NCBI GenBank assembly: GCA_039679385.1
Contig: JBDKVB010000031.1
Location: 1-64,000 of the forward strand
From: Armatimonadia bacterium
Lineage (GTDB): Bacteria; Armatimonadota; Zipacnadia; Zipacnadales; JABUFB01
Length of the DNA stretch: 64,000 nt
Direction of reading: 5' to 3'
Under the pieces are notes generated by a model. It was not told where the DNA came from and ran no database searches. It was given only the letters and a program-made list of their open reading frames with translations. Numbering within the stretch: position 1 is the stretch's first letter; every line of letters starts with the position of its first letter. Below, piece after piece: positions 26,274-40,576 of the stretch. The position numbers were made by a program, and so were the translations under genes.

Positions 26274-27413
26274 ATGCATGTCCTGGTCGTGTCCGTAGGC
26301 AACTCTCAGGGCACCTGTGAGGCGCTGATCTCACGGGGCCTGGACGTGTCTGCCCTGCGACCCGCGACCATCGACCTGGGCGACTTCGGCGGTCCGCAGC
26401 AGGTCTCCGGCGAGGGTCTCCCCTATCCCCTGTATACGCTGCCGGTCTTCCCACAGCGTCCCTATCCTTACAGTCTCTACCGCGGCGGCCTGCCACGGGT
26501 TCTGAAGCAGGCGAAGCCGGACCTCGTCTACTGCCTCGGTGAGCCCTCGGAGCTGGGTGTCGCACAGGTCGTCCGCCAGACCCGCAAGCTTCTCCCCCAA
26601 GCGCGAGTGGTGCTATACAGCTTCGAGAACCTGTCTCGCCCCTGGCAGGGCTTCCCCCGCTGCCTGCGCGGACGAGCCCTGGAGCAGACGGTTCCGCTCG
26701 TGGATGCGGTCGCGGCCTGCACCCAGACCTGCGCCGATTACTGGGCCGGCCTGGGGTTCCCTCCTGAGCGGACTCGCGTGGTGTACAACGGCGCCGACCC
26801 GGAGCATTTCCGCCGCCGAGAGTCAGCCGAGGTCCGTCGCGAGCTGGCTCCCGACGACGCCTTCCTGGTTGGCTACGTTGGCCGGCTGGTGCATGAGAAG
26901 GCTGTCGACGTGCTGCTCCGAGCGGTGGCCTCCCTGCCCGAGACCTTCCATCTTGCGCTTGTCGGACAGGGCGCCCTGGAGAACGACCTGCGCAGCCTCG
27001 CGCTGGGTCTGGGCCTCGGCAACCGCGTCTGCTGGCCGGGAAGAGTCAGTAAGGAGCAGATGCCCGAGTACCTCTCCGCCTTCGACGCGCTCGTCCTGCC
27101 CTCGCGAGCGATTCCGGTCTGGCAGGAACAGTACGGGATGGTGATGGTGGAGGCGATGCTGTGCGGGACGCCGGTAGTCGGGTCCTCCAGTGGCGCGATT
27201 CCCGAGGTGATTGGCGAGGCAGGGATGGTGTTCCCGGAAGAGGATGTGCCGGCCCTCGCCGCCGCTCTCCAGTCTCTCCAGCAAGACCCGCAACTAGGCG
27301 CCGACCTGGCAGGCAAGGGTCTGCGGCGTGCCCGGGAGCAGTTCACCTGGCAGGTCGTCTCCGACCGTCTGCTGGCCCTGTTCGAAGAGACGATCTCCCG
27401 CCCCAGACGCTGA
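26274..27413 (+). CDS. GT4-family glycosyltransferase
   Basis: Retaining glycosyltransferase with GT-B fold, 379 residues. The C-terminal half has the GT4 pattern VGYVGRLVHEKAVDVLL, then VLPSR...WQEQYGMVMVEAMLCGTPVVGSSSGAIPEV, which holds the two conserved Glu residues that bind the nucleotide sugar. The N-terminal half is the acceptor domain (KPDLVYCLGEPSELG). GGGGAG at 26263-26268 supports the ATG. It precedes the sugar-synthesis operon by 110 bases that contain a promoter, so it may belong to it in function but not in transcript. Donor and acceptor are unknown. Confidence 0.88.
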   Translation: MHVLVVSVGNSQGTCEALISRGLDVSALRPATIDLGDFGGPQQVSGEGLPYPLYTLPVFPQRPYPYSLYRGGLPRVLKQAKPDLVYCLGEPSELGVAQVVRQTRKLLPQARVVLYSFENLSRPWQGFPRCLRGRALEQTVPLVDAVAACTQTCADYWAGLGFPPERTRVVYNGADPEHFRRRESAEVRRELAPDDAFLVGYVGRLVHEKAVDVLLRAVASLPETFHLALVGQGALENDLRSLALGLGLGNRVCWPGRVSKEQMPEYLSAFDALVLPSRAIPVWQEQYGMVMVEAMLCGTPVVGSSSGAIPEVIGEAGMVFPEEDVPALAAALQSLQQDPQLGADLAGKGLRRAREQFTWQVVSDRLLALFEETISRPRR

Positions 27414-27523: not shown

Positions 27524-29041
27524 TTGGCTGCGACGGACAAGATCCGGCCTCTGCCGGAGCTGGCGAAGCTGGTCGAGGGTCTCCATCGAGAGGGCAAGCG
27601 CGTGGTCCTCTGCCACGGCTGCTTCGACCTGCTGCACATCGGCCACCTGCGCTACCTGCAGAAGGCGGCCCGACTGGGCGACGTCCTCGTCGTCACGGTG
27701 ACCCCGGACCGCTTCGTTAACAAGGGCCCGCATCGCCCTGCCTTCCCCGAGGAGTACCGTGCTGAGGCCCTGGCCTCGCTGACCTGCGTGGACTACGTGG
27801 CGATCAACGAGACCCCGACCGCCGTAGAGCTGCTGGAGCTGCTCAAGCCCGATATCTACGCCAAGGGTGCGGAGTACCGGGAGAACCGCACACCGGAGAT
27901 TCAGCGCGAAGAGGCGGCTCTTGCGGCCACGGGCGGCGAGATGGCCTACATCGAGGAGGTCACCTCCAGCTCGACGGAGCTGATCAACCGGCACCTGTCG
28001 CCCTTCCCCGACACCACGACGCAGTACCTGGCTCACATGGCCGAGCAGTACGGACCGGGGCCGATCCTCGACTGCCTGGAGCGCTGCTCGCAGACCCGGG
28101 TGCTGGTCCTTGGCGAGGTGCGGATTGAGGAGTACTGCTACTGTGAGTCGCTGCAGCGTTCGGCCAAGGCTCCGCTGGTGGCGATGCGGTACCTGTCCGA
28201 GGAACGCTTTGCGATGGGCGCACCGGCCGTCGCGAACTACCTGGCGGAGTTCTGCGGCGAGGTGCGTCTGCTCGGCATGCTCGGGGCCGACAATCCGCAG
28301 GAAGAGTGGGTGCGCAGCCAGTTGAGCCCCGGGGTCGAGCCGGTGTTCCTTCACAAGCCGAGCGCGCCGACCATCACCAAGCGCCGCTACCTCGAGGCCT
28401 ACTTCGGCCAGCCACTCTTCGAGCTCTTCAACATGAACGACGAGCCGCTGGACGAGGAGGCCGAGGGCGTCCTGTGCGAGCAGGTGCGCGAGTTCGCGCC
28501 CGCCTACGATCTGGTGGTGGTGGCCGACTACGGTCTGGGTATGCTCACCGACAGGGCCGTCGAGGTCTTGGCCGACCAAGCGCGATTCCTTGCCGTAAGC
28601 CCGCAAGTGAATGCAGGTAACTTCGGCTACCAGGCCTTCACAAAGTACCCGCGGGCCGACTATGCCTGTCTCGCCGAGCAGGAGATGCGGCTGGAGTACC
28701 GCACGCGGTCGGGTGACCTGACGCCGCTTCTCGCAGACCTGGGGCGGAGACTCCAGGCGAAGCGCGTGGTCGTTACGCGGGGCAAGCATGGTGCGCTGGC
28801 CTGGAGCCCTGAGGCCGGAGTCCACGAAGCTCCTTCCCTTGCGGTGCGCGTGACGGACCGCATGGGTGGCGGCGATGCTTTCTTTGCGCTGTCCTCGCTC
28901 TGCGCCTATCAGGAGGCGCCGCTGGAGATCATGGCCTTCGTGGGGAACGTCGCGGCTGCCGAGGTGATCGCCTCCATGGGTGCCCGGGCGTCGCTGGAGA
29001 AGCTCCCCCTGCGCAGACATATTGAGTCCTTGCTCAAATGA
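27524..29041 (+). CDS. HldE-like nucleotidyltransferase/kinase fusion in reversed order
   Basis: Bifunctional protein of 505 residues with the two parts of HldE/RfaE in the opposite order. Residues about 10-160 are a cytidylyltransferase-like domain (CHGCFDLLHIGHLRYL with the HxGH motif, VTPDRFVNKGP, YAKGAEY, EEVTSSSTELI). Residues about 170-505 are a PfkB/ribokinase-like domain (GEVRIEEYCYC, LGMLGADNPQEEWV, VTRGKHG). The kinase anion-hole motif, normally GAGD, is GGGD in RMGGGDAFF near residue 448. The start is TTG 27524, set by GGAGGT at 27510-27515. It probably activates a sugar phosphate as an NDP-sugar in a surface glycan pathway; whether the substrate is a heptose is unknown, since no other heptose gene is seen here. 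Confidence 0.85.
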   Translation: MAATDKIRPLPELAKLVEGLHREGKRVVLCHGCFDLLHIGHLRYLQKAARLGDVLVVTVTPDRFVNKGPHRPAFPEEYRAEALASLTCVDYVAINETPTAVELLELLKPDIYAKGAEYRENRTPEIQREEAALAATGGEMAYIEEVTSSSTELINRHLSPFPDTTTQYLAHMAEQYGPGPILDCLERCSQTRVLVLGEVRIEEYCYCESLQRSAKAPLVAMRYLSEERFAMGAPAVANYLAEFCGEVRLLGMLGADNPQEEWVRSQLSPGVEPVFLHKPSAPTITKRRYLEAYFGQPLFELFNMNDEPLDEEAEGVLCEQVREFAPAYDLVVVADYGLGMLTDRAVEVLADQARFLAVSPQVNAGNFGYQAFTKYPRADYACLAEQEMRLEYRTRSGDLTPLLADLGRRLQAKRVVVTRGKHGALAWSPEAGVHEAPSLAVRVTDRMGGGDAFFALSSLCAYQEAPLEIMAFVGNVAAAEVIASMGARASLEKLPLRRHIESLLK

Positions 29042-30060
29042 GCCCCGAAGAGGTGCATGCTGTGCCTGAACTGAAGCGAGTGTTTGTGACGGGTGGCGCG
29101 GGCTACGTCGGTGCGGTCCTGGTGCCGAAACTCCTGGAGGCGGGCCATGAGGTGACGGTGCTCGATCTGTTCCTCTATGGCGACCACGTGCTGGAGGCCG
29201 TGAAGGACCATCCGGGTCTCAAGCTCGTGCGAGGAGACCTGCGCGACCAGGCCCTACTGCGAGAGGTTCTACCCGGCTCCGACGCCGTCATCCATCTGGC
29301 GTGCATCTCCAACGACCCGAGCTTCGAGCTTGACCCGGAGCTGGGGCGCTCGATCAACTACGACGCCTTCGAGCCACTGGTGAAGATCTCGGCCGACGGC
29401 GGGGTCAAGCGTTTCATCTACGCTTCCTCCTCCAGCGTCTATGGGATCAAGGACGAGGACAACGTCACCGAGAACCTGCCGCTGGAGCCCCTCACCGACT
29501 ACTCCAAGTACAAGGCGCTCTGCGAAGAGGTTCTCCAGCGCTACCAGTCGCAGGACTTCACGACGGTGACGGTTCGCCCGGCGACGGTTTGCGGCTACTC
29601 GCCCCGACTGCGCCTGGACCTCACCGTCAATATCCTGACCAACCACGCGGTCAATCGCGGGCGCATCACCGTCTTTGGCGGCTCTCAGCGGCGGCCTAAC
29701 ATCCACATCGGCGACATCACCGACCTGTACGTGGACCTGCTCGCACGGCCCGCCGCGCAAGTGGCCGGGAAGGTCTGGAACGCGGGCTATGAGAACCACA
29801 AGGTGAGTGAGATCGCGCAGATCGTGAAGGGTGTCGTGGGCAAAGCGGTCGAGATCGTCACCGAGCCCACCGACGACCTGCGCTCCTATCACATCTCCTC
29901 GGAGCTGATCCGGCGTGACCTCGGTTTCGTGCCGCAGCACACCATCGAGGACGCTGTGCGCAATCTTGTGGACGCCTTCGGGGCCGGGCTGATCCCCAAC
30001 CCCCTGGAGGACATCCGCTACTACAACATCAAAACCATGCAGGCCCTGCACATGAAGTGA
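29038..30060 (+). CDS. NAD-dependent epimerase/dehydratase (extended SDR)
   Basis: Extended short-chain dehydrogenase of 340 residues that acts on nucleotide sugars. It has the Rossmann motif VFVTGGAGYVGAVL, LDLFLYGD, the HLACISND segment, catalytic SSSSVYG with YSKYK about 20 residues later, and VRPATVCGYSPRLRLD. The sequence DxSFELDPELGRSINYDAF is like those of NAD-dependent epimerases near heptose and O-antigen genes. Its ATG overlaps the stop of the kinase fusion (ATGA), and it is 54 bases before the transketolase N subunit. The product sugar is unknown. Confidence 0.87.
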   Translation: MSPEEVHAVPELKRVFVTGGAGYVGAVLVPKLLEAGHEVTVLDLFLYGDHVLEAVKDHPGLKLVRGDLRDQALLREVLPGSDAVIHLACISNDPSFELDPELGRSINYDAFEPLVKISADGGVKRFIYASSSSVYGIKDEDNVTENLPLEPLTDYSKYKALCEEVLQRYQSQDFTTVTVRPATVCGYSPRLRLDLTVNILTNHAVNRGRITVFGGSQRRPNIHIGDITDLYVDLLARPAAQVAGKVWNAGYENHKVSEIAQIVKGVVGKAVEIVTEPTDDLRSYHISSELIRRDLGFVPQHTIEDAVRNLVDAFGAGLIPNPLEDIRYYNIKTMQALHMK

Positions 30061-30114
30061 GTGGGTCGCGAGGCGGCGGCGGAGGAGACCTCGGGCTTTC
30101 GGCATCGGAGGAAC

Positions 30115-30933
30115 ATGACCAAGACCTGTGAGCTGGAGAAGACGGCACGGGAGATTCGCGCCCGGTTAGTCGCCCTGTCACACGCTTCCGGGGCCCCGCA
30201 TCTGGGGTCCTCGCTGTCCTGCGTGGATATCCTCGTGGCGGCCTACTGGCGCGTCCTGCACCTCGACCCGCAGGCGCCCCAGGACCCACTGCGTGACCGC
30301 CTCCTGCTGAGCAAGGGCCATGCCGCGACCTCCCTGTACTGCGCTCTGGCTTACCGCGGGTTCTTCCCGGTGGAGATGCTCGACCATTTCGCCGAGCCCG
30401 GCTCCTGTCTGCCCGAGCATCCCAGCGCCTCCTGTGCGCCGGGAGTGGAGATCGCCAGCGGCTCGCTCGGGCATGGGTTGTCGCTCGGTGTCGGGATGGC
30501 TATCGCCGGACGCATCCAGCAGCAGGACTACCGCGTCTTCGTAGTGATGAGCGACGGTGAGTGCAACGAGGGGTCTGTCTGGGAAGCCGCGCTGATGGCT
30601 CCGGCGCAGAAGCTGGAAAACCTCGTGGCGATCATCGACTACAACAAGTGGCAGGCCACCGGGCGCAGCAACGAGGTGCTGGCCTTGGCGCCCCTGCGGG
30701 ACAAATGGGAGGCCTTCGGCTGGAGCGTCACCGAAGTCGATGGGCACGACCTCGACGCCCTCAGCGAGGCGCTGGGCAAGACTCCCGACGGGAGCGGCAA
30801 GCCCCGGACCATCCTTGCCCACACCGTGAAGGGCAAGGGCGTTTCCTTCATGGAAGACGACAACAACTGGCACTACCGCATCCCCACTGCCGAGGAAGTC
30901 GAGATGGCCAGGAAGGAGCTGGGGCTCACGTGA
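30115..30933 (+). CDS. transketolase-like N-terminal subunit
   Basis: Thiamine-diphosphate-binding half of a split transketolase, 272 residues. Seen are REIRARLVALSHASGAPHLGSSLS, the LLLSKGHAATSLY segment, GSLGHGLSLGVGMA, and the ThDP/metal motif SDGECNEGSVWEAALM (the first Gly of GDG is Ser) ending in IDYNKWQ. The ATG at 30115 has GGAGG at 30107-30111; a GTG at 30061 directly after the previous stop is a weaker choice. It is coupled to the C-terminal subunit through GTGA. Inside a polysaccharide cluster it more likely makes or moves a ketol unit on a special sugar than serves the pentose phosphate pathway; this is inference from context. Confidence 0.9.
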   Translation: MTKTCELEKTAREIRARLVALSHASGAPHLGSSLSCVDILVAAYWRVLHLDPQAPQDPLRDRLLLSKGHAATSLYCALAYRGFFPVEMLDHFAEPGSCLPEHPSASCAPGVEIASGSLGHGLSLGVGMAIAGRIQQQDYRVFVVMSDGECNEGSVWEAALMAPAQKLENLVAIIDYNKWQATGRSNEVLALAPLRDKWEAFGWSVTEVDGHDLDALSEALGKTPDGSGKPRTILAHTVKGKGVSFMEDDNNWHYRIPTAEEVEMARKELGLT

Positions 30934-31853
30934 GAAACGCTTTCGCTGCTGAGCTGCAGGCCCTGGCCGAGGACGGGTTCCCTGTGGTCTTGCTCTCCGG
31001 GGACATCGGCAACCGCCTCTTCGACAAGTTCAAGGCCGCCTTCCCCGAGCGCTTCTACAACTGCGGAGTGGCCGAGGCGAACATGATGAGCGTGGCCGCC
31101 GGGATGGCTTTCTGCGGCCTGCGCCCTATCAGCTACACCATCGCACCCTTCACGACCACACGCTGCTTCGAGCAGATTCGCGTGGATGTGTGCTATCACG
31201 ACCTGCCGGTGATCATCGCCGGAGTCGGCGCCGGATTGTCCTATGCCGCCAACGGACCGACGCACGAATCCTGCGAGGACATCGCCCTCTTGCGGGCACT
31301 GCCGAACATGACGGTCGTGTGCCCGGCGGACCCGCTGGAGGTCCGACTGGCCCTCCGAGCCGCGATGCAGCACGACGGACCGGTCTACCTGCGCCTGGGC
31401 AAGAAGGGCGAGCCGCCGCTGCACAAGTCGACGCCCAACTTCCAGATTGGCAAAGCGCTGACCCTTCGTCGTGGGACCGACCTGTGTCTGCTGGCGACCG
31501 GGAATATGGTCGCCGTCGCCCTGGAGGCGGCGCTGGTCCTGCGCCAGGAAGGGCTCTCGGCCCGGGTCGTCGACTTTCACACCGTCAAGCCGCTGGACGA
31601 GAAGGCGCTCAGAGACGCCTTCTCGCGCTTCCCGCTGGTCGCCACGGTCGAGGAGCACTCGGTGATTGGCGGACTGGGCGGAGCCGTCGCGGAATGGCTC
31701 GCGGATCATCCCGGGCTGCCCGGTCGTCTGGTACGCATCGGCACGCCGGATCGATTCCAGCACGAAGCCGGTGGCCAAAGCTACGTCCGCCAGTGCTTCG
31801 GGCTGACGCCTCAGGCTATCGCCGACCGCCTGCGTGGCTTTGCTTCGCAGTGA
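30930..31853 (+). CDS. transketolase-like C-terminal subunit
   Basis: Pyrimidine-binding and C-terminal half of the split transketolase, 307 residues. The catalytic Glu that activates the thiamine ring is in FYNCGVAEANMMSVAAGMA. Then follow YTIAPFTTTRCFEQIRVDVCYHD, the GPTHES loop, RLALRAAMQHDGPVYLRLGKKGEP and a C-terminal domain with VDFHTVKPLDEKAL and EHSVIGGLGGAVAE. The start is GTG 30930 overlapping the stop of the N subunit, so the two are made together. Split transketolases of this form are frequent in archaea and in bacterial capsule or O-antigen loci. Confidence 0.9.
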   Translation: MRNAFAAELQALAEDGFPVVLLSGDIGNRLFDKFKAAFPERFYNCGVAEANMMSVAAGMAFCGLRPISYTIAPFTTTRCFEQIRVDVCYHDLPVIIAGVGAGLSYAANGPTHESCEDIALLRALPNMTVVCPADPLEVRLALRAAMQHDGPVYLRLGKKGEPPLHKSTPNFQIGKALTLRRGTDLCLLATGNMVAVALEAALVLRQEGLSARVVDFHTVKPLDEKALRDAFSRFPLVATVEEHSVIGGLGGAVAEWLADHPGLPGRLVRIGTPDRFQHEAGGQSYVRQCFGLTPQAIADRLRGFASQ

Positions 31854-31917
31854 TTCCATCGCCTTGCTCCGGGGCCTGGCTCCCTCTTCCCACTGACTAC
31901 TTCACGAGCGTGCCGAG

Positions 31918-32970
31918 ATGAAGACTCTTGCTGCCGTACTGGTCGAAACGGGCAAGCCCCTCGAACTGGTGGAGCTGACGATTCCTGACCTTAAGCCGGG
32001 GCAGGTGTTGGTGGAGGTCGCCTTCAGTGGCGTGTGCCACACGCAGGTCCTGGAGGCTCGTGGTCACCGGGGCGAGGACCGCTACCTGCCCCACTGCCTC
32101 GGTCATGAAGGAAGCGGGACGGTGCGTGAAGTCGGCGCCGGCGTCACAAAGGTCAAGCCCGGTGACAGGGCCATCCTCTCCTGGATCAAGGGCTCGGGCA
32201 TGGACGTGCCCGGCTCGGTCTACGACTGGGACGGGAAGAGGGTGAACGCAGGCGGGATCACGACCTTCCAGCGCTTCGCCGTCCTCAGCGAGAACCGTCT
32301 CACTCCGCTCAGCGCCGAGGCCGGGACGGACTCCGTGTCGCTGCGTGATGCCGCGCTGATTGGTTGCGCGATCCCCACCGGCATGGGCGCAGTGCTCAAC
32401 ACGGCTCGTCCGCGTCCGGGTGAGAGCCTCGCGGTCTTTGGCATCGGTGGCGTCGGCGTCTGTACGGTGATGGCTGCCAGTCTCGCCGGTTGCGTGCCCC
32501 TGATCGCGGTCGATGTGCACGAGCACAAGCTCGATCTAGCCCGCAAGCTCGGCGCGACCCATTGCATCAACTCCGCGCAGCAGGACCTTGCCGCGGAGCT
32601 AACACGGGTCTGCCCCGGCGGACTGGACTTCGCCGTCGAGGCGACTGGGCGACCCGCGGTCATGCTCCAGGCGCTGTCCTGTGTGCGCAGCCAGGGCGGA
32701 GCAGCGGTCATCGTCGGCAATGCGCACTTCGGCGAGCAGTTGACGCTCGACCCGAGGCAGCTCAATCAGGGCAAGCGTCTTCTCGGCACCTGGGGCGGCG
32801 ACAACTGGCCGGACCGCGACTACCCGCGCTACTGTCGGCTGCTATCGGCGGGCAAGTTCAGCCTCGACCCGATCCAGTCCGAGCCCTATGCGCTGGCCGA
32901 CCTCAACCGTGCGCTGGAGGATCTCGAAGCCGCGCGAGTGCCACGTCCTCTGATCGACATGTCCCTGTGA
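31918..32970 (+). CDS. zinc-dependent medium-chain dehydrogenase
   Basis: MDR-family alcohol/polyol dehydrogenase of 350 residues. The catalytic zinc set is visible as GVCHTQ (Cys near 39) and GHEGSG (His and Glu), and the NAD site as VFGIGGVGVCTVMAASLAG. The structural-zinc lobe with four Cys is missing: the region after GDRAILSW is short and reads KGSGMDVPGSVYDWDG. Start ATG 31918 has no strong ribosome site. It sits between the transketolase and a HAD phosphatase. A parallel, not proof, is TarJ, an MDR ribulose-phosphate reductase paired with a cytidylyltransferase in polyol activation. Confidence 0.85.
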   Translation: MKTLAAVLVETGKPLELVELTIPDLKPGQVLVEVAFSGVCHTQVLEARGHRGEDRYLPHCLGHEGSGTVREVGAGVTKVKPGDRAILSWIKGSGMDVPGSVYDWDGKRVNAGGITTFQRFAVLSENRLTPLSAEAGTDSVSLRDAALIGCAIPTGMGAVLNTARPRPGESLAVFGIGGVGVCTVMAASLAGCVPLIAVDVHEHKLDLARKLGATHCINSAQQDLAAELTRVCPGGLDFAVEATGRPAVMLQALSCVRSQGGAAVIVGNAHFGEQLTLDPRQLNQGKRLLGTWGGDNWPDRDYPRYCRLLSAGKFSLDPIQSEPYALADLNRALEDLEAARVPRPLIDMSL

Positions 32971-32983
32971 AGGGTGCCCGTGA

Positions 32984-33589
32984 ATGCGGATCGGCATCGA
33001 CTTCGACAACACAATCGTGTGCTATGACCAGGTCTTCCATGCGGCGGCTCGGGAGCGCGAGCTGATTCCCGCCGAGGTGCCCGTCTCCAAGGAGGCCGTC
33101 CGCAACTACCTGCGCAGCATCGACCGCGAGGAGGACTGGACGAAGCTGCAGGGCTACGTGTACGGGCCACGGATGCGCGACGCCCTGCCCTTTGCGGGAG
33201 TGCTGGACTTCTTCGCCCGGTGCTCGGAGGCCCAAGTTCCGGTCTGGATCATCAGCCACAAGACACGCTACCCCTTCCAGGGGCCGCAGTATGACCTCCA
33301 CGAATCGGCGCGGCAGTGGATCGCCGATCACGGGCTCCTTGACGCCGACCGCGTGGGCCTGCCCGCCGACCACGTCTTCTTCGAGCTCACCAAGTCGGCC
33401 AAGCTGCAACGGGTGGAGCAGGTGAACTGCACTCATTTTATCGACGACCTGCCCGAGTTCCTCGCCGAGGAGGACTTCCCAGCGGCTGTGCAGCGGATCC
33501 TATTTGACCCGCAGAACCACCACCCGGGCGAGACACGCTTCCTCCGGGCGACCTGCTGGGAGCAGGTCTGGGAGCTCGTGAGGCCGTGA
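32984..33589 (+). CDS. HAD-superfamily phosphatase-like protein
   Basis: Protein of 201 residues with the HAD nucleophile motif IGIDFDNTIVCYDQ at the N-terminus (both Asp residues kept), a VWIISHKTRYPF segment that fits motif II, and CTHFIDDLPEFL as motif IV. A helical cap with LDFFARC precedes motif II. It probably removes phosphate from a sugar intermediate. Its stop overlaps the GTG start of the next gene, so the two are translationally coupled, suggesting paired work on one metabolite. Confidence 0.78.
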   Translation: MRIGIDFDNTIVCYDQVFHAAARERELIPAEVPVSKEAVRNYLRSIDREEDWTKLQGYVYGPRMRDALPFAGVLDFFARCSEAQVPVWIISHKTRYPFQGPQYDLHESARQWIADHGLLDADRVGLPADHVFFELTKSAKLQRVEQVNCTHFIDDLPEFLAEEDFPAAVQRILFDPQNHHPGETRFLRATCWEQVWELVRP

Positions 33590-34632
33590 CGACCCTAAGT
33601 TCGCCGCCGGCTGAAGTCCCGCAGGAGGCTCTTGCGTGCCTGCTCGCTCAGGCAGGCATGCGGGAGGACGCACGCGTCGAGGCAATCCCCGGCGGGATGA
33701 ACAACCGCGTCTTCCGAGTCACCTCAGGGCAGGGCGAGGCACTGCTGAAGGCCTACTTCCATCATCCGGAAGACCCGCGCGACCGCCTGGCGACGGAGTA
33801 TGGCTTCTGCGCCTTTGCCTGGTCACACGGGGTTCGCGCTCTTCCTCAACCACTGGCCGCCGACCCGGTGCACCATCTCGCGGTGTATGAGTTCGTGCAT
33901 GGGCGCAGGCTCAATCCGGGCGAAGTGACTGCCGACCACGTCGCGCAGGCCCTGGCCTTCTACCGCGATCTGAACCGATGCCGCGAAGACGCTCACGACC
34001 TGCCGGCGGCCTCTGAGGCCTGCTTCTCTCTCGCAGACCATCTCGCCACGGTTCAGCGGCGCGTGGATAGGTTGGCTGGAATCTCGGCAGCTGATCCCGT
34101 CGGCGCAGAGGCGGCGGACTTCCTCCGAGACGACCTTCTGCCTGCGTGGAAGGAAGTTGCTTCGGAGGTCCAGACCCAGGCCGCAACACGGGGCCTTGCA
34201 CTTGCAGAGCCCCTGAGCGATGCCGATCGTTGCCTGTCGCCCTCGGACTTCGGCTTCCACAACGCACTCCAGGAATCGGGCGGGCGTCTGCGGTTCCTGG
34301 ACTTCGAGTACGCCGGCTGGGATGACCCGACGAAGCTGGTGTGCGACTTCTTCCATCAGCCCGCGGTGCCTGTCCCGGCCGAGCATTGTGAGAGCTTTGC
34401 GCAGCAAATCGCCGAGAGCCTGGGCGATCCTGCCTACCACCGAGCGCGCTTCTCGCTGCTCATGCCGGTGTATCGCCTCAAGTGGTGCTGCATCCTGCTG
34501 AACGATTTCCTCCTGGCGGGTGGCGCACGAAGGCACTTCGCCCGGGTATCGGCGGAGGATCCGCAGACCCTGGCTCAGCGCAAGGCCCGGCAACTCGCCA
34601 AGGCTCGGGAGATGCTGCCGCGCTCGCTCTGA
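33586..34632 (+). CDS. aminoglycoside phosphotransferase/choline-kinase-like protein
   Basis: APH-fold kinase of 348 residues. An N-lobe GGMNNRVFRV with LLKAYFHHPEDPRDR fits the P-loop and ATP Lys. The catalytic loop reads LSPSDFGFHNAL near residues 216-227, where the usual HGDxxxxN has Ser in place of His but keeps Asp and Asn. FLDFEYAGWDDPTKLVCDFF holds the metal-binding Asp. The start is GTG 33586, within the previous stop. In this cluster it is likely a sugar or polyol kinase rather than a resistance gene. Similar Ser-type loops exist in uncharacterised APH homologues. Confidence 0.8.
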   Translation: MTTLSSPPAEVPQEALACLLAQAGMREDARVEAIPGGMNNRVFRVTSGQGEALLKAYFHHPEDPRDRLATEYGFCAFAWSHGVRALPQPLAADPVHHLAVYEFVHGRRLNPGEVTADHVAQALAFYRDLNRCREDAHDLPAASEACFSLADHLATVQRRVDRLAGISAADPVGAEAADFLRDDLLPAWKEVASEVQTQAATRGLALAEPLSDADRCLSPSDFGFHNALQESGGRLRFLDFEYAGWDDPTKLVCDFFHQPAVPVPAEHCESFAQQIAESLGDPAYHRARFSLLMPVYRLKWCCILLNDFLLAGGARRHFARVSAEDPQTLAQRKARQLAKAREMLPRSL

Positions 34633-34669
34633 TCGCCGTTCCACCGTCGCAAGGAAGGGGCTTCACCTC

Positions 34670-35671
34670 ATGCCATCGACCCGCAGGATCGTCGTCCTGG
34701 GCGCCAACTCCTTCTCCGGGCAGGATCTCGTCGACCTGCTGCTGGAGGACCCCGACAACGAGGTGATCGGCGTCAGCCGCTCGCCGGAGCGCACAGCCCT
34801 CTTCCTGCGCTACAAGCTCCGCGGCGATCTGGGCCGCTACCGCTACTACCAGTTCGATATGAACTGGGACATGCCCGCGCTGCTGCAGCTTCTGGATGCG
34901 GAGCGCCCCAACTGGATCATCAACTTCGCCGCCCAGAGCGAGGTGGCCCCGAGCTGGGAGCACCCCGAGCACTGGTTCGAGACCAACACCGTGTCGCTGG
35001 CGCACCTGGTGAACCATCTGCGGAGGCAGGACTACCTGGAGCGCTACCTGCACGTGTCCTCGCCGGAGGTCTACGGGACCTGCGTGGGTAGCGTCTACGA
35101 GGAGGCGCCACTCAACCCGAGCACTCCCTATGCAGCCTCGAAGGCGGCCGCCGACCTGCTGCTGGGCACCTACCGCAAGCAGTTCGACTTCCCGCTGCTG
35201 ACCGTGCGCTCGACCAACGTCTACGGAGCCCGGCAGCAACTCTTCAAGATCATCCCGCGCTCAGTGATCTACCTCAAGCTGGGCAACAGGATCCAGCTCC
35301 ACGGCGGCGGCGTGGCCGTGAAATCGTACATTCATGTGCGCGACATCTCTCGCGGCGAGTTGGCGATCCTGCAGCACGGGGAACCCGGCAGCCTGTACCA
35401 CCTCTCCCCCGATCAGGGCATTGCGGTGCGCGACGTGGTGCGGCTCATCTGCGAGCGGATGGGCGTTCCCTTCGAGCAGGCCACCACAACCGTTGAGGAG
35501 CGACCAGGCCAGGATGCTGCTTACGTGATCGAGTCGGAGCGTGCCCGCAAGGAACTCGGCTGGGCTCCGCAGATCAGCATCGAGGACGGCCTCGCCGAGG
35601 TCGTGCAGTGGGTCGAGGACTACTGGCGCGAGATCAGTTTGCAGTCGTTGGAGTACCAACACAGGGCCTAG
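34670..35671 (+). CDS. nucleotide-sugar epimerase/4,6-dehydratase (extended SDR)
   Basis: Extended SDR of 333 residues similar to dTDP-glucose or GDP-mannose 4,6-dehydratases. It has VVLGANSFSGQDLVDLL (a variant of the GxxGxxG motif), NFAAQSEVAPSWEHP, the catalytic SSPEVYG, YAASKAAADLLLGTY and RSTNVYGARQQLFKIIPR. The start is ATG 34670, set by AAGGAAGGGG (34651-34660); the longer frame from 34520 overlaps the kinase gene. The Thr-Asp-Glu triad of true dehydratases is not clear after SSPEVYG, so an epimerase is equally possible. It belongs to the same rightward operon. Confidence 0.85.
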   Translation: MPSTRRIVVLGANSFSGQDLVDLLLEDPDNEVIGVSRSPERTALFLRYKLRGDLGRYRYYQFDMNWDMPALLQLLDAERPNWIINFAAQSEVAPSWEHPEHWFETNTVSLAHLVNHLRRQDYLERYLHVSSPEVYGTCVGSVYEEAPLNPSTPYAASKAAADLLLGTYRKQFDFPLLTVRSTNVYGARQQLFKIIPRSVIYLKLGNRIQLHGGGVAVKSYIHVRDISRGELAILQHGEPGSLYHLSPDQGIAVRDVVRLICERMGVPFEQATTTVEERPGQDAAYVIESERARKELGWAPQISIEDGLAEVVQWVEDYWREISLQSLEYQHRA

Positions 35672-35715
35672 CGCCTTGTCTCTACAGAATCCGGAATCCA
35701 GGCAGGCGGTTAGCG

Positions 35716-36378
35716 ATGGCGTATGTAGATTTCCTGATGAAGCTGCACAAGTCCACAGCCCGCGACTACGTGGCGCGAGTGCTGGAGGCCGACAAGGCCG
35801 AGTGCGCCGAGGTGGCGACCCAGTTCGGCAGGGACTACTGGGACGGCGAGCGCAAGTACGGGTATGGCGGCTACCGCTACGACGGTCGCTGGCGAGCAGT
35901 GGCCGAGGACATGGTGCGCCACTACAACCTTCCGGCCGATGCGCGGATTCTGGATGTCGGCTGCGGCAAGGCCTTCCTGCTGTATGAGTTCACCCAGGTG
36001 CTGCCCGGCGCGACCGTGGCCGGAATCGACCTCTCGGAGTACGCCATCGCCAACGCCAAGGAGGAGGTACGCCCTTTCCTGCAGGTCGGCACGGCGGCTG
36101 ATCTGCCCTATGAGAACAACTCCTTCGACTTCGTCGTCTCTCTCAATACGATCCATAACCTGTATATCAACGAGCTGTGGGCAGCGCTCCAGGAGATTGA
36201 GCGCGTAGGCCGCGGGGCAAAACACGTTTGCATCGAGACCTACCGTAACGAGCGCGAGAAGGTGAACCTGCTCTACTGGCAACTCACGTGCCGGGCCTTC
36301 CACACCCCGGAGGAGTGGGAGTGGATCTTCGAGCAGGCCGGCTACAGGGGGGACTACTCCTACATCGTCTTCGAGTAA
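35716..36378 (+). CDS. class I SAM methyltransferase
   Basis: Methyltransferase of 220 residues. Motif I is ILDVGCGKAFLLYEF near residues 76-90, with GIDLSEYAIANAKE and VSLNTIHNLY as later motifs. The sequence before it, DYWDGERKYGYGGYRYDGRW, resembles family members found with O-antigen genes. The ATG at 35716 is used because the longer frame begins inside the upstream gene. It is the first of three methyltransferases in a row and probably modifies a sugar residue. Confidence 0.84.
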   Translation: MAYVDFLMKLHKSTARDYVARVLEADKAECAEVATQFGRDYWDGERKYGYGGYRYDGRWRAVAEDMVRHYNLPADARILDVGCGKAFLLYEFTQVLPGATVAGIDLSEYAIANAKEEVRPFLQVGTAADLPYENNSFDFVVSLNTIHNLYINELWAALQEIERVGRGAKHVCIETYRNEREKVNLLYWQLTCRAFHTPEEWEWIFEQAGYRGDYSYIVFE

Positions 36379-36389
36379 GGGAGGCGTCA

Positions 36390-37079
36390 ATGGGCGACAG
36401 GACTCGTGAGCCGCAGTACCAGCGGTGTGTACAGTTGCGGGAGGCCGGTCGGGTAGACCGCCTCGGCCTCATGTCCAACCAGGGATGGCATGACGATCCG
36501 AAGCGGTTGCTGTTCACCCTGGCTCGCTACAAGTTCGTCGCCAAGATGCTCTCGGGACGCAAGAACGTGCTGGAGGTCGGATGCGCTGATGCCTTCGGGA
36601 CGCGCGTCGTAGTCCAGGAGGTGCAGCACGTCACGGCCACCGACTTCGACCCGGTCTTCATCGCGGACGTTCAGGAGCGCATGGACGAGGAGTGGGCCTT
36701 CGACTGCTTCGTGCATGACATGCTCTCCGGACCGGTGTCGGGTTCCTTCGACGCGGCCTATGCGCTGGACGTGATCGAGCACATCGCGCCCGCGCAGGAG
36801 GACCTGTTCTTGCGCAACCTCCTCGCGTCGCTCGTACCGGATAGCGTGGTGATCCTGGGCACTCCCTCACGGGCCTCCGAAGCCTATGCCTCGCCACCGA
36901 GTCGCGAGGGGCACGTGAACCTCAAGGACGCACCGGCGCTACGCGACTTGATGGAGCGCTACCTCAAGCACGTGTTCCTCTTCTCGATGAATGACGAGGT
37001 CGTGCACACCGGCTTCTACCCCATGGCGCATTATTACCTTGCCCTGGGCTGCCAGGTGAAGGAGAGGCCGAATGGCTGA
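36390..37079 (+). CDS. class I SAM methyltransferase
   Basis: Second methyltransferase, 229 residues. VLEVGCADAFGTRVV is motif I, followed by ATDFDPVFI and AYALDVIEHI, and a VILGTPSRASEAYASP segment. GGGAGG at 36379-36384 supports the ATG at 36390. It differs clearly from its neighbour at 35716, so it is not a recent duplicate. It overlaps the next gene by 8 bases. Confidence 0.83.
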   Translation: MGDRTREPQYQRCVQLREAGRVDRLGLMSNQGWHDDPKRLLFTLARYKFVAKMLSGRKNVLEVGCADAFGTRVVVQEVQHVTATDFDPVFIADVQERMDEEWAFDCFVHDMLSGPVSGSFDAAYALDVIEHIAPAQEDLFLRNLLASLVPDSVVILGTPSRASEAYASPPSREGHVNLKDAPALRDLMERYLKHVFLFSMNDEVVHTGFYPMAHYYLALGCQVKERPNG

Positions 37080-38031
37080 GGGCCGCCCCTCCGGGGTATT
37101 TCAGAAGCTGCGGTACGCGCTCTGGTGGCGCTACTGGGTGTTCCTCCGCCTGCGGGCAACTCACCACCTGTCCTGGTCGACGCTTGGCCTCGCGCTCGAT
37201 CTTGATTCGGTCCTGCGGTCGCGAGTGGTGAGGTGGATTCTGCGATTCCGGCTTCGGGAGGCCGGAGACGGTCTGGTGGGGATGAAGGTCGGGAGTGCCC
37301 GCGAGTGGCTGCTTCCGGTCCGCAGGCACCTCCCCGCGCCGAAGGCCTTCGCCGATGTGTTCATATTCCTGTGGCTTCCCGTGTACCTTCTGGATGCCTA
37401 CGAGATGGAGCGGTTCCTGAAGCCCGGGATGACGGTGATCGACGGCGGCGCTCACGCCGGCGGGTTCTCGCGACTGGCCGGGGAGCTAGTCGGCCCCACG
37501 GGGAGGGTCATCGCCGTTGAGCCCTGCGAGGAGAACCTCGCTGCGCTGCGGCCGAACCTTGATGGGTCCGACGGCGCGCAGGTGACGGTTCTGCAAGGCG
37601 CCCTGTGGCAGGAGGACACCGACCTTGAGCTGCAACTCGCGGACACGAATCTGGGTCGGCAGGCCGTCAGTCAGGACAGGCGGCAAGAGGTCATCGGCAC
37701 CCTCAAGGTCAAGGCCAGGAGCATCGATCATATCGCCGCCGAGTTGGGCCTCGACCGCGTTGATCTGATCAAGCTGGACATCGAAGGCTGTGAGGCCGAA
37801 GCGCTGCGAGGGTCTGCCGAGGTCCTGCGTGTTCATCGCCCGGTGGTCATCACGGCCGCCTACCACAAGGCCGGCGACCTGCACGATCTCCCGGCGCTGC
37901 TTGCCGAGTTGACGACCGACTATCTGATCTGCCCTTACCAGGCCTATCCGGGCGCCGAGGTCCTGATCATGGCTGTCCCCCGGGAGCGTATCCCCGAGGG
38001 TCTTGAAGCTGCCAACCGGTTCACTGCGTAG
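37072..38031 (+). CDS. FkbM-family methyltransferase
   Basis: FkbM-type O-methyltransferase of 319 residues. The methyltransferase domain covers about 110-300: TVIDGGAHAGGFSRLAGE, GRVIAVEPCEENLAALRPN, then VDLIKLDIEGCEAEALRG, the diagnostic FkbM segment. About 110 N-terminal residues form a separate, Trp- and Arg-rich region. FkbM proteins methylate sugars and polyketides. The ATG overlaps the end of the previous gene by 8 bases. A TAG stop at 38029-38031 separates it from an RmlD-like frame that goes on in the same phase. Confidence 0.87.
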   Translation: MAEGRPSGVFQKLRYALWWRYWVFLRLRATHHLSWSTLGLALDLDSVLRSRVVRWILRFRLREAGDGLVGMKVGSAREWLLPVRRHLPAPKAFADVFIFLWLPVYLLDAYEMERFLKPGMTVIDGGAHAGGFSRLAGELVGPTGRVIAVEPCEENLAALRPNLDGSDGAQVTVLQGALWQEDTDLELQLADTNLGRQAVSQDRRQEVIGTLKVKARSIDHIAAELGLDRVDLIKLDIEGCEAEALRGSAEVLRVHRPVVITAAYHKAGDLHDLPALLAELTTDYLICPYQAYPGAEVLIMAVPRERIPEGLEAANRFTA

Positions 38032-38100
38032 CGCCGGCAGCGGACCGTCGTCACCGTACCTGCACTCACACCCAAAGCCGCGCAACGGGGGGCTCACCTA

Positions 38101-38964
38101 CTGTCTGCACACCTGGTCATCGGCGCTGACAGCACCCTTGGTCGGGCGCTCCTGCTTCGCCTTCAGGAGCTCGGTCTGCCCTGCCTGGGTACGACGCGTC
38201 GAGATGGCTCAACACCGGATCGCCTCCCGCTGGACCTTGCCGGGATCCCCGCCGACTGGCGGCCCCCGGAAGGTGTTGCCGTCGCCTATCTGTGCGCCGC
38301 CGTGACCTCCACGAACCAGTGCCGCAGTGACCCCGAGGGAACGCGCAGGACGAATGTGATCGGCACGCTGGCCGTCGCTCGTACTCTGCGAGAGGCCGGT
38401 GCGCACCTGGTGTTCCTCTCCACCAACCTCGTCTTCGATGGCTCAGTTCCCCATCAGCGAGCATACAGCCCAACCTGCCCGCAGACGGAATATGGCCGCC
38501 AGAAGGCTGAGGTGGAGGCGAAGCTACTGGAGCAACCGGGGGCTACGGTGCTGCGCCTGACGAAGGTCCTCACGTCGCACATGGGGTTGGTACAGGGGTG
38601 GCTGAGCGAACTGCGCGAGGGCCGGAGCATCCAGCCGCTCTCCGACCTTCCGCTGGCGCCGGTCAGCCTGCCACAGGTAGTCGAGGCCCTGTCCACCCTC
38701 GGCCTGCGACGTCCTGAGGGTATCTTCCAGCTATCGGCGCGGGACGACTTTGCCTACGCGGAGATGGCGCAACTGCTTGCAAAGGGCCTGGGAGTCGAAC
38801 CGGGGCTCGTGCAGCCGATCTGCTCGAAGGACGCCGGTCTGGACCTCGAGCATGTCCCCCGCTTCACGTCCCTGGACACTTCGCGGGCCGAGCAGGAACT
38901 CGGCTTCGCTGCCCCCGAAGCGCAGGCGGTTGTTCGCAGCGTCTTCGCGACGCCTTGCCGCTGA
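38101..38964 (+). CDS. RmlD-like nucleotide-sugar reductase, probable CTG start
   Basis: Rossmann-fold protein similar to dTDP-4-dehydrorhamnose reductase. In-frame translation upstream of the first usual start (GTG 38302) gives HLVIGADSTLGRALL, an evident NAD(P)-binding motif, and no stop back to 38031. No ATG, GTG or TTG is found there; CTG 38101, with GGGGGG at 38087-38092, is the best start and yields 287 residues. Later features are RRTNVIGTLAVARTL, FLSTNLVFDGSVPHQ and YGRQKAEVEAKLL with the YxxxK pair. The C-terminal LSARDDFAYAEMAQLL is also RmlD-like. Its stop is 3 bases from the end of the convergent ABC ATPase. Confidence 0.75.
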   Translation: MSAHLVIGADSTLGRALLLRLQELGLPCLGTTRRDGSTPDRLPLDLAGIPADWRPPEGVAVAYLCAAVTSTNQCRSDPEGTRRTNVIGTLAVARTLREAGAHLVFLSTNLVFDGSVPHQRAYSPTCPQTEYGRQKAEVEAKLLEQPGATVLRLTKVLTSHMGLVQGWLSELREGRSIQPLSDLPLAPVSLPQVVEALSTLGLRRPEGIFQLSARDDFAYAEMAQLLAKGLGVEPGLVQPICSKDAGLDLEHVPRFTSLDTSRAEQELGFAAPEAQAVVRSVFATPCR

Positions 38965-38967
38965 GGC

Positions 38968-39705
38968 TTAGGCGTCGGCCTGCGCAAGATACTCCTCGAC
39001 GACTTCGTCCGTCGGACCGTCACGCTGCACCAGGCCGCCCTCCAGCCAGATCACCCTCGTGCACAGGTTGCGGATGGCCGTCATCTCGTGCGACACCATG
39101 ACCAGGCTGCTGTTGCTCGCCAGCATCTGGCGCAGAAGCGTGTAGGCGCGATGCTGGAAGTGGGCGTCACCGGCGGTGAGGATCTCGTCCAGCAGAAGGA
39201 TCTCCGGCGCGAAGGTGATCGCGATGGCAAACCCCAGCCGCAGGCCCATCCCCGAAGAGTAGGACTTGAAGGGCACGTCGACAAAGTCGCCCAGTTCCGA
39301 GAGTTCGATGATCTCCTCCATGCTGGCGCGAACCACGCGAGGCGCGATGCCCATCAAGGCGCCGCTGAGGAGGATGTTGTCGCGACCGCTCAGCTCCGTG
39401 GCGAACCCGGCACCCAGCTCAAAGAGACCGCCGGCCGCGTAGCGCAAGCTGACCTCCCCGGCAGTGGGCACGTAGATCCCCGCCAGAATCCGCAGCAAGG
39501 TGCTCTTCCCCGAGCCGTTGCTGCCGATCACGCCAACAGCCTCTCCCGGGTTCACGGTCAAGCTGATGCCATTGAGCGCCCACAGGATATCCGTCGGGAA
39601 AGGCCGCAGCATGCGGGTGAAGACCCGCTTGAGGCTCGGCTGGCTCTCCCGCCGAATCATGAAACGCTTCTTCAGATCGTGCACCACAATCGCGGGCTCG
39701 CTCAT
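38968..39705 (-). CDS. polysaccharide-export ABC ATPase, Wzt/TagH type
   Basis: ATPase of an O-antigen/teichoic-acid type exporter, 245 residues. Walker A is GSNGSGKSTLLRILAG, the signature segment KSYSSGMGLRLGFAIA, and Walker B EILLLDEILTAGD. The N-terminal KKRFMIRRESQPSLKRVF is characteristic of this subfamily. There is no C-terminal carbohydrate-binding domain as in some Wzt proteins, so export need not depend on a cap. The start at 39705 has GGAG upstream and shares one base with the permease stop (TGATG); a longer frame to 39729 is less likely. Confidence 0.9.
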   Translation of the reverse strand: MSEPAIVVHDLKKRFMIRRESQPSLKRVFTRMLRPFPTDILWALNGISLTVNPGEAVGVIGSNGSGKSTLLRILAGIYVPTAGEVSLRYAAGGLFELGAGFATELSGRDNILLSGALMGIAPRVVRASMEEIIELSELGDFVDVPFKSYSSGMGLRLGFAIAITFAPEILLLDEILTAGDAHFQHRAYTLLRQMLASNSSLVMVSHEMTAIRNLCTRVIWLEGGLVQRDGPTDEVVEEYLAQADA

Positions 39706-40529
39706 CACACCATCTCCGGGAACTGCCACTCATAGCGGCGCCACACCAGGGTGCCCACGACCAGCAGCAGCGCCGCCCAGGCGATGGAGATGCCCAGGTA
39801 GCCGAAGTAGCCCGGCACCGGCCACTGTGCACCATGCAGCAGCGCCGTCCGGTAGCCGATGAATAGCGGCGCCAGCGGATTGCCGACGATGTAGAGCTCC
39901 TTCATCAGCGGGGTCAGGCGAGTGCTGTTCAGCACCTGCTCGACGGGATACAGGATCGGGCTCAGGAAGAACAACACCTGCAGCACCCAGGTGATGATGA
40001 ACTTCACGTCTTCGTAGTACATCTGCAGGGCCGACAGGATCATCAGCACACCGAGGGTCAGGCAGGCCTGGATAAACAGCAAGGGCAGGACCCACAGGAA
40101 GCACCAGTGCATGGTGACCGGGACCGCCAGGAACACCACGAGGAGCACGATGAAGCTCAGACTCATGTGGACGAAGTTCGAGCCCAGCGCGGCGGCCGGA
40201 AGCAGGATGCGGGGAAAAGGGTACTTCTTGATGAGCACCGCGTCCTTGATGAGGCACACGGTTCCGTCGCCGAGGGACTGCAGAAAGAAGGTCCAGGGCA
40301 ACAGGCAGGTCAGCAGCTCCACCGAGAAGTTCTTGATGGTGGAGCCCATGATGTACTTGAACACGATCGTCATGACGACGATCTGCATCAGGGGGTTGAT
40401 GAAGGACCACAGGAACCCGAGAGCGGAGTTCTTGTAGCGCAGTTTGAGGTCACGGCGGACCAGAAGCGTCACCGCCTGCACCCATACCCACGGTGCTACG
40501 GCTCCCCGGCCCCTTGTCGCTGCAGTCAT
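39705..40529 (-). CDS. polysaccharide-export ABC permease, Wzm/TagG type
   Basis: ABC-2 family permease of 274 residues with six predicted membrane segments. LVRRDLKLRYKNSALGFLWS is the conserved amphipathic entry, followed by NPLMQIVVMTIVFKYIMG, LLTCLLPWTFF and a late LFFLSPILYPVEQV. The start is ATG 40529 with GGGAG about 8 bases before; the frame to 40559 is longer but has no site. A promoter is seen at 40577-40605. It forms an exporter with the ATPase downstream and closes the sugar cluster from the opposite strand. Confidence 0.9.
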   Translation of the reverse strand: MTAATRGRGAVAPWVWVQAVTLLVRRDLKLRYKNSALGFLWSFINPLMQIVVMTIVFKYIMGSTIKNFSVELLTCLLPWTFFLQSLGDGTVCLIKDAVLIKKYPFPRILLPAAALGSNFVHMSLSFIVLLVVFLAVPVTMHWCFLWVLPLLFIQACLTLGVLMILSALQMYYEDVKFIITWVLQVLFFLSPILYPVEQVLNSTRLTPLMKELYIVGNPLAPLFIGYRTALLHGAQWPVPGYFGYLGISIAWAALLLVVGTLVWRRYEWQFPEMV

Positions 40530-40576
40530 GGAACACTCCCGCTTCGGGCTCTCTGCCAACTCGCACGCCGGGTCCT

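Follow-up and report, generated by a model that had tools for sequence, protein, structure and literature searches.

A candidate bradyrhizose-type operon in an armatimonad and a putative modified-transketolase route to branched or ring-fused surface sugars

Which sugar would be made by an operon that joins a split transketolase (TK) to enzymes of nucleotide-sugar synthesis is the question raised by positions 27524–38964 of a 64,000-nucleotide stretch of DNA from an Armatimonadia bacterium (GCA_039679385.1, contig JBDKVB010000031.1, positions 1–64,000, + strand), hereafter called the window. The original prediction described here a pathway dependent on thiamine diphosphate (ThDP) for a nucleotide-activated surface sugar, beside an ABC glycan exporter, and this description is supported. 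Its statement that no named sugar uses this gene set was overturned, as the operon linked to bradyrhizose does so: judged by sequence, nine of the eleven bradyrhizose-linked genes are present in an armatimonad, an organism far removed from the rhizobia. With a probability of roughly 0.6, the window encodes a bradyrhizose-type operon in which a heptose would be oxidized at C4, extended by two carbons by the TK and converted to a ring-fused or branched sugar, to be exported by Wzm/Wzt.

The nine window genes, all on the + strand, are reciprocal best matches to nine of the eleven genes of a Bradyrhizobium operon, with nearly collinear order. They encode (amino acid identity to the Bradyrhizobium protein in parentheses) NTK, a fusion of an HxGH nucleotidyltransferase and PfkB (27524..29041, CTP_transf_like and PfkB domains, 25 %); SDR1, an epimerase-type SDR and putative nucleoside diphosphate (NDP)-heptose C4-dehydrogenase (29038..30060, 46 %); TKN, the ThDP-binding half of the split TK (30061..30933, Transketolase_N, 63 %); TKC, its pyrimidine-binding and C-terminal half (30930..31853, Transket_pyr and Transketolase_C, 63 %); MDR, a zinc alcohol dehydrogenase (31918..32970, PF08240/PF00107, 58 %); HAD, a phosphatase (32984..33589, 44 %); APH, a small-alcohol kinase with an APH domain (33586..34632, 49 %); SDR2, the homologue of the bradyrhizose-operon gdh (34670..35671, 41 %); and MT1, a class I methyltransferase recognized by its domain match and a conserved member of the cassette (35713..36378, 58 %).

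The surface glycan of photosynthetic Bradyrhizobium contains bradyrhizose, an inositol-fused bicyclic sugar with ten carbons; ring closure from its C1 can be on O4, O5 or O9. An insertion in gdh abolishes the bradyrhizose O-antigen, and gdh lies in an eleven-gene operon conserved among photosynthetic strains, approximately 40 kb from rfaL (Busset et al. 2016, PMC4743980). The same authors stated that the genes for bradyrhizose synthesis were unknown, and the role of the operon was their assumption. A strong APH match was found in 74 of 243 Bradyrhizobium genomes; about fourteen score lower and represent a second type. In one second-type genome the published ORS278 rfaL primer matched with no mismatch, and the published ORS285 gdh primers flanked one segment of the SDR2 homologue with 1–2 mismatches. 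The distance from SDR2/gdh to rfaL in this genome is 35 kb, and exactly eleven genes extend from NTK to MT1 (NTK, a nucleoside triphosphate (NTP) transferase, SDR1, GmhA, SDR2/Gdh, TKN, TKC, MDR, HAD, APH and MT1). The gdh primers, the rfaL primer and the gene count, which is as stated in PMC4743980, thus identify this operon as the published one. A match to a described pathway was to have counted against the original prediction; such a match exists at the level of the gene set, which corresponds to an operon already published, but the literature found describes no chemistry for it.

The two operons share the order NTK, SDR1, TKN, TKC, MDR, HAD, APH, MT1 and have Wzm/Wzt nearby, the window Wzt ABC ATPase (38968..39729, − strand, PF00005) being 37 % identical to the Wzt adjoining the ORS278 operon. 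They differ in that SDR2 follows APH in the window and precedes TKN in Bradyrhizobium, and in that the window, from a different phylum, adds genes for a methyltransferase (MT2), an FkbM-type protein and an RmlD-like protein. In the TKC tree, the window and the bradyrhizose operons fall in one clade of 34 sequences (support 95/94) from Armatimonadota, Planctomycetota, Poribacteria, Nitrospirota, Cyanobacteriota, Chloroflexota, Elusimicrobiota, Verrucomicrobiota and Bradyrhizobium. Operons with this nine-gene set are hereafter called type A. The TKC sequences of type B operons, including DegT-bearing operons of Bradyrhizobium, form a separate clade (100/100).

Conserved co-occurrence in other genomes, by which the original prediction could be checked, was found in a second armatimonad, with relatives in many phyla. 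Among 151 genomes searched, a full-length NTK match occurred together with any APH kinase match in one genome besides that of the window (G072, Fimbriimonadaceae), where both matches lie inside one block of approximately 7 kb with the order NTK-SDR1-TKN-TKC-MDR-HAD-APH, as in the window, at 45–71 % identity. HAD and APH are a single fusion protein of 516 amino acids in this operon (L041:9473-11023), and its NTK has GASE as the PfkB motif, not GAGD. The grouping is more than chance, since the core of seven genes is repeated with unchanged order in another armatimonad and in many phyla.

Scanning with SDR1 gave at least 80 loci, with 63–73 % identity and about 18 phylum-level names. These loci share a front end consisting of an SDR of protein cluster C4, NTK, a GmhA-like SIS protein, a GmhB-like phosphatase and SDR1, after which alternative back ends follow: TK with HAD, APH and MT1; a pyruvate-E1-type alpha/beta pair; or DegT aminotransferases. 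All three would be sensible if the product of SDR1 is a keto sugar. The TK back end further carries either MDR and SDR2, or DegT with the clusters C24 and C29 (type B). Among the 80 SDR1 matches listed, TK was present in 40 loci, the E1-type pair in 14 and both together in none (hypergeometric P 1.5e-5, which assumes independent loci and, with related loci counted singly, is indicative only); HAD and APH accompany TK in these loci and never E1.

When the APH family replaced SDR1 as the query in an independent survey, full-length cases numbered 2 among 291 Armatimonadota genomes; matches numbered 11 among the 386 genomes of a cyanobacterial phylum sample and some two dozen among 385 Alphaproteobacteria. 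Within 10 kb, 29 of the 31 neighbourhoods examined from this survey contained TKN, 28 HAD, 25 SDR1 (identity of 40 % or more) and 24 NTK. All nine type A genes were present together in 16 surveyed loci plus the window. Divergent NTK/SDR1/TK/HAD/APH operons were also seen in cyanobacterial genomes of 1.7–2.8 Mb (L180–L185). A Pseudomonas aeruginosa plasmid (NZ_CP147627.1) bears a 49 % identical homologue of SDR1 together with a stand-alone nucleotidyltransferase, DegT, GNAT, a class III aminotransferase and GH65, perhaps a related amino-sugar cluster. The families TIGR04323 and TIGR04324 (‘sporadic carbohydrate cluster’, NCBIfam) lie within sister type B operons (e.g. L115:16618-17836); they do not occur in the window operon and carry no pathway assignment. 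Literature searches on ‘sporadic carbohydrate cluster’ and on transketolase, O-antigen and heptose together in Bradyrhizobium found nothing.

The split TK of the cassette keeps the four active-site histidines in TKN and R358, E411 and H473 (E. coli numbering, as hereafter) in TKC, while in the window TKC S385, H461, D469 and R520 are replaced by R, G, N and K, respectively. Across the cassette family, H461 is lost in every TKC (to G, or to A in some short TKC2 variants), as is D469 (to L, N or Q), and R520 is replaced in nearly all; the sole canonical exception is a second split TK beside FabG on a Solidesulfovibrio plasmid (L124:5914-7682). Since positive charge persists at the TKC phosphate site, a phosphorylated donor is still possible. 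Compared with pentose phosphate TKs, the window protein thus agrees at the catalytic Glu and the ThDP-site His and departs at the sugar-phosphate site (S385, H461 and R520) and at the acceptor residue D469. The host genome, a 5.6 Mb draft, contains eight Transket_pyr genes. Two of these, a full-length TK (51 % identical to TktA of E. coli) and another split TK, retain every canonical residue. The possibility raised with the original prediction, that the window TK is the only copy in the cell and serves the pentose phosphate pathway, was rejected on these grounds. In the TKC2 variants (L068, L090, L095, L110 and L119) the second TK half has merely 165–185 amino acids, too short for Transketolase_C, and is located behind two DegT genes, with either a radical SAM gene or a GT2 gene as its neighbour.

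The domain order of NTK, nucleotidyltransferase followed by PfkB, is opposite to that of HldE, and NTK scores below the HldE cut-offs. Its PfkB motifs are GGGD and AMG in place of GAGD and AGG, and its nucleotidyltransferase domain is distantly TagD-like. A canonical HldE (G000:C124) and a GmhA-like gene (G000:C48) lie at other places in the genome. Alteration of PfkB is shared with other type A operons that have no GmhA: four of nine type A loci without GmhA/GmhB, two of these being near-identical, have lost the PfkB Asp, vs none of 35 loci having them. Many SDR1 loci contain NTK and SDR1 without any TK, often with GmhA- and GmhB-like genes, so the substrate of NTK would be independent of TK.

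The best PDB match of SDR1, in which the SDR motif YxxxK is present as YSKYK, was 6vo6 (E 3.8e-39), which we take to be Campylobacter Cj1427. Cj1427 catalyses the C4 oxidation of GDP-heptose in the Campylobacter NDP-heptose pathway (PMC10680097). The likeness to this pathway lies in SDR1 and in the GmhA/GmhB/HldE-like companions of the sister loci, whereas the ThDP, MDR and HAD/APH steps of the window are absent from it.

No Pfam or NCBIfam family matched the HAD protein at cut-off; its predicted model has a HAD fold that is deoxyribonucleotidase-like, the fold search yielding the class only. The HAD family keeps all motifs (D6, D8, S91, K140, D154 and D155), and D221, N226 and D239 are invariant in the APH family, for which the fold search, at class level only, gave a choline/MTR/aminoglycoside kinase fold. 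From their residues, both enzymes look active. GmhB-like and HAD proteins occur together in several loci, which speaks against HAD as a substitute for GmhB there; one GmhB query, run without a positive control, gave no match in the window genome, where HAD might have such a role. Replacement of a dead PfkB kinase by APH was considered and is disfavoured, and since PfkB is intact in most APH loci, APH probably has another role. MDR has a weak match to galactitol-1-phosphate dehydrogenase. SDR2 has (S/T)PEVYG in 26 of 26 orthologues vs DEVYG in the dehydratases, so that the dehydratase Asp is lost; it scores below the NCBIfam cut-off and lacks the Asp-Glu pair of dTDP-glucose 4,6-dehydratase.

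In the proposed pathway, a nucleotide-activated heptose would be made by the NTK fusion, or by GmhA and HldE encoded elsewhere, and SDR1 would oxidize it at C4 to a 4-keto-heptose. The split TK, with its altered acceptor pocket, may then add a two-carbon ketol to a keto or aldehydo sugar, joining first either at the C4 ketone from SDR1 or at a C7 aldehyde, possibly from MDR. MDR and SDR2 would oxidize or reduce, permitting or following an intramolecular aldol closure, and HAD and APH may manage a phosphate required solely in the TK branch. Addition of a methyl group by MT1 would give a branched or ring-fused C9–C10 sugar, which MT2, the FkbM-type and the RmlD-like enzymes would decorate before export of the glycan by Wzm/Wzt. 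Observed are the homology, order and co-occurrence of the genes, their residue patterns and the clade; the reactions, the C4 site, the ring closure and the identity of the sugar are all inferred. The carbon skeleton is consistent with this scheme. As C1 of bradyrhizose closes on O4, O5 or O9, C4 should be a carbinol in a six-carbon ring, C4–C9, bearing the chain C1–C3; a heptose (C1–C7) with a two-carbon bridge from C4 to C7 would give that ring, and one further carbon would make ten (7 + 2 + 1). One methyltransferase is encoded in the Bradyrhizobium operon, fitting one extra carbon, the presumed C10.

E1 alpha/beta pairs are a known class of keto-sugar branching enzymes, e.g. AviB1/AviB2 and Pau11/Pau12, ThDP heterodimers for which two-carbon addition to a 4-keto sugar has been proposed. 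Such pairs take the place of the TK in the sister loci directly after SDR1, which fits a TK step downstream of activation. With a TK in the window, a ketol rather than an acetyl donor is expected. Split transketolases have been proposed as keto-sugar branching enzymes for miharamycin and amipurimycin (PMC12247030). Those TKs, compared here by description only, belong to Streptomyces secondary metabolites (13 sequences), whereas the window-type TKs occur in surface-glycan loci of many phyla with HAD, APH and MDR. Bradyrhizose-type sugars are probably built from a heptose and a two-carbon unit by a modified transketolase. A TK whose acceptor is a keto- or aldehydo-heptose bound to a nucleotide, with a subsequent aldol closure, may be how bradyrhizose and other ring-fused ten-carbon surface sugars are generally made across many phyla, small-genome cyanobacteria among them, though the odds of this are somewhat less than even.

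Several points weigh against the assignment. The link between operon and bradyrhizose is an insertion mutant lacking the whole O-antigen, with polar effects possible, and is only assumed by its authors (PMC4743980). TK action on keto sugars is unproven anywhere, HAD and APH have unexplained roles in the pathway, and the armatimonad enzymes and glycan are known here from genes alone. No GmhA or NTP transferase, both encoded in the Bradyrhizobium operon, was found within 27524–38964; these were treated as accessory because they are not universal within the type A clade either. Together with the 25 % identity of NTK and its altered PfkB motif, this suggests that the starting or activated sugar of the window may differ.

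A branched sugar without ring fusion draws on the same data. Here the TK would put a glycoloyl group on C4 of an NDP-keto sugar, MDR would reduce the branch ketone and methyltransferases would finish a 4-C-branched heptose or hexose, other genes closing the ring of bradyrhizose. Such a plain branch would be the simplest product of the E1 loci or of type B, in which TK occurs without MDR and SDR2; the window, however, carries the two genes that mark the bradyrhizose-type clade, MDR and SDR2, and none of the type B genes DegT, C24 and C29, so that this product is rather unlikely. The locus could also be mixed, NTK and SDR1 making one NDP sugar while a small substituent is built apart from it by TK, MDR, HAD, APH and MT1. 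HAD-APH-TKN-TKC-MT1 without SDR1, as in L124 and some APH-first loci, suggests such independence, but both blocks adjoin in one operon in most loci and no such substituent would be required in a homopolymer of bradyrhizose, which makes a mixed locus a doubtful explanation.

In the order given in the original prediction, the TK would form a ketose phosphate, from which MDR would produce a polyol phosphate by reduction; phosphates would be shifted by HAD and APH, and the fusion would yield an NDP-polyol. MDR enzymes include polyol-phosphate dehydrogenases, and the galactitol-1-phosphate dehydrogenase match and the TagD-like domain of NTK point the same way. This order is nevertheless very improbable: there are loci in which NTK and SDR1 have GmhA/GmhB-like companions but no TK, E1 pairs replace TK after SDR1, the phosphate-site residues of the TK are changed, and the sugar linked to the matching operon is not a polyol.

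The remaining genes of the predicted set were likewise present on the + strand of 27524–38964 with the expected domains and spacing, HAD being recognized by its fold and motifs and the RmlD-like open reading frame requiring extension. Gene borders are overlaps of 4–8 bp or gaps of 0–92 bp as far as the FkbM gene. The accessory genes encode MT2, a class I methyltransferase assigned by domain match (36471..37079, +), an FkbM-type methyltransferase (37072..38031, +, PF05050) and an RmlD-like reductase, also a domain match (38302..38964 as called, +). The last is too short at 38302; its frame is open upstream (38029–38301), where it encodes a Rossmann-type GADSTLG motif, and the real start would be near 38100. 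No ATG, GTG or TTG start was found for the extended frame, which makes the true start uncertain, and a CTG start or a sequence error may be the explanation. Wzt and the Wzm ABC-2 permease (39705..40559, − strand, PF01061) are convergent to the operon. Just 5′ of it, a GT4-type glycosyltransferase (26274..27413, +, PF00534/PF13439) is, by its position only, probably part of the same glycan locus.

Bradyrhizose has been an orphan sugar, and the comparison delimits a nine-gene core and gives most of its enzymes a testable role. From it, bradyrhizose-like sugars are expected in about nine phyla, and dozens of candidates emerge for a TK acting on the ketone or aldehyde of a nucleotide sugar, so far only a proposed reaction. 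The sister operons of the E1 and DegT types would be modular uses of one keto-sugar intermediate. With relatives of the gene set in many phyla, the construction of such sugars becomes testable, and the general TK/aldol route, if true, would be a new way of forming C–C bonds in nucleotide-sugar chemistry.

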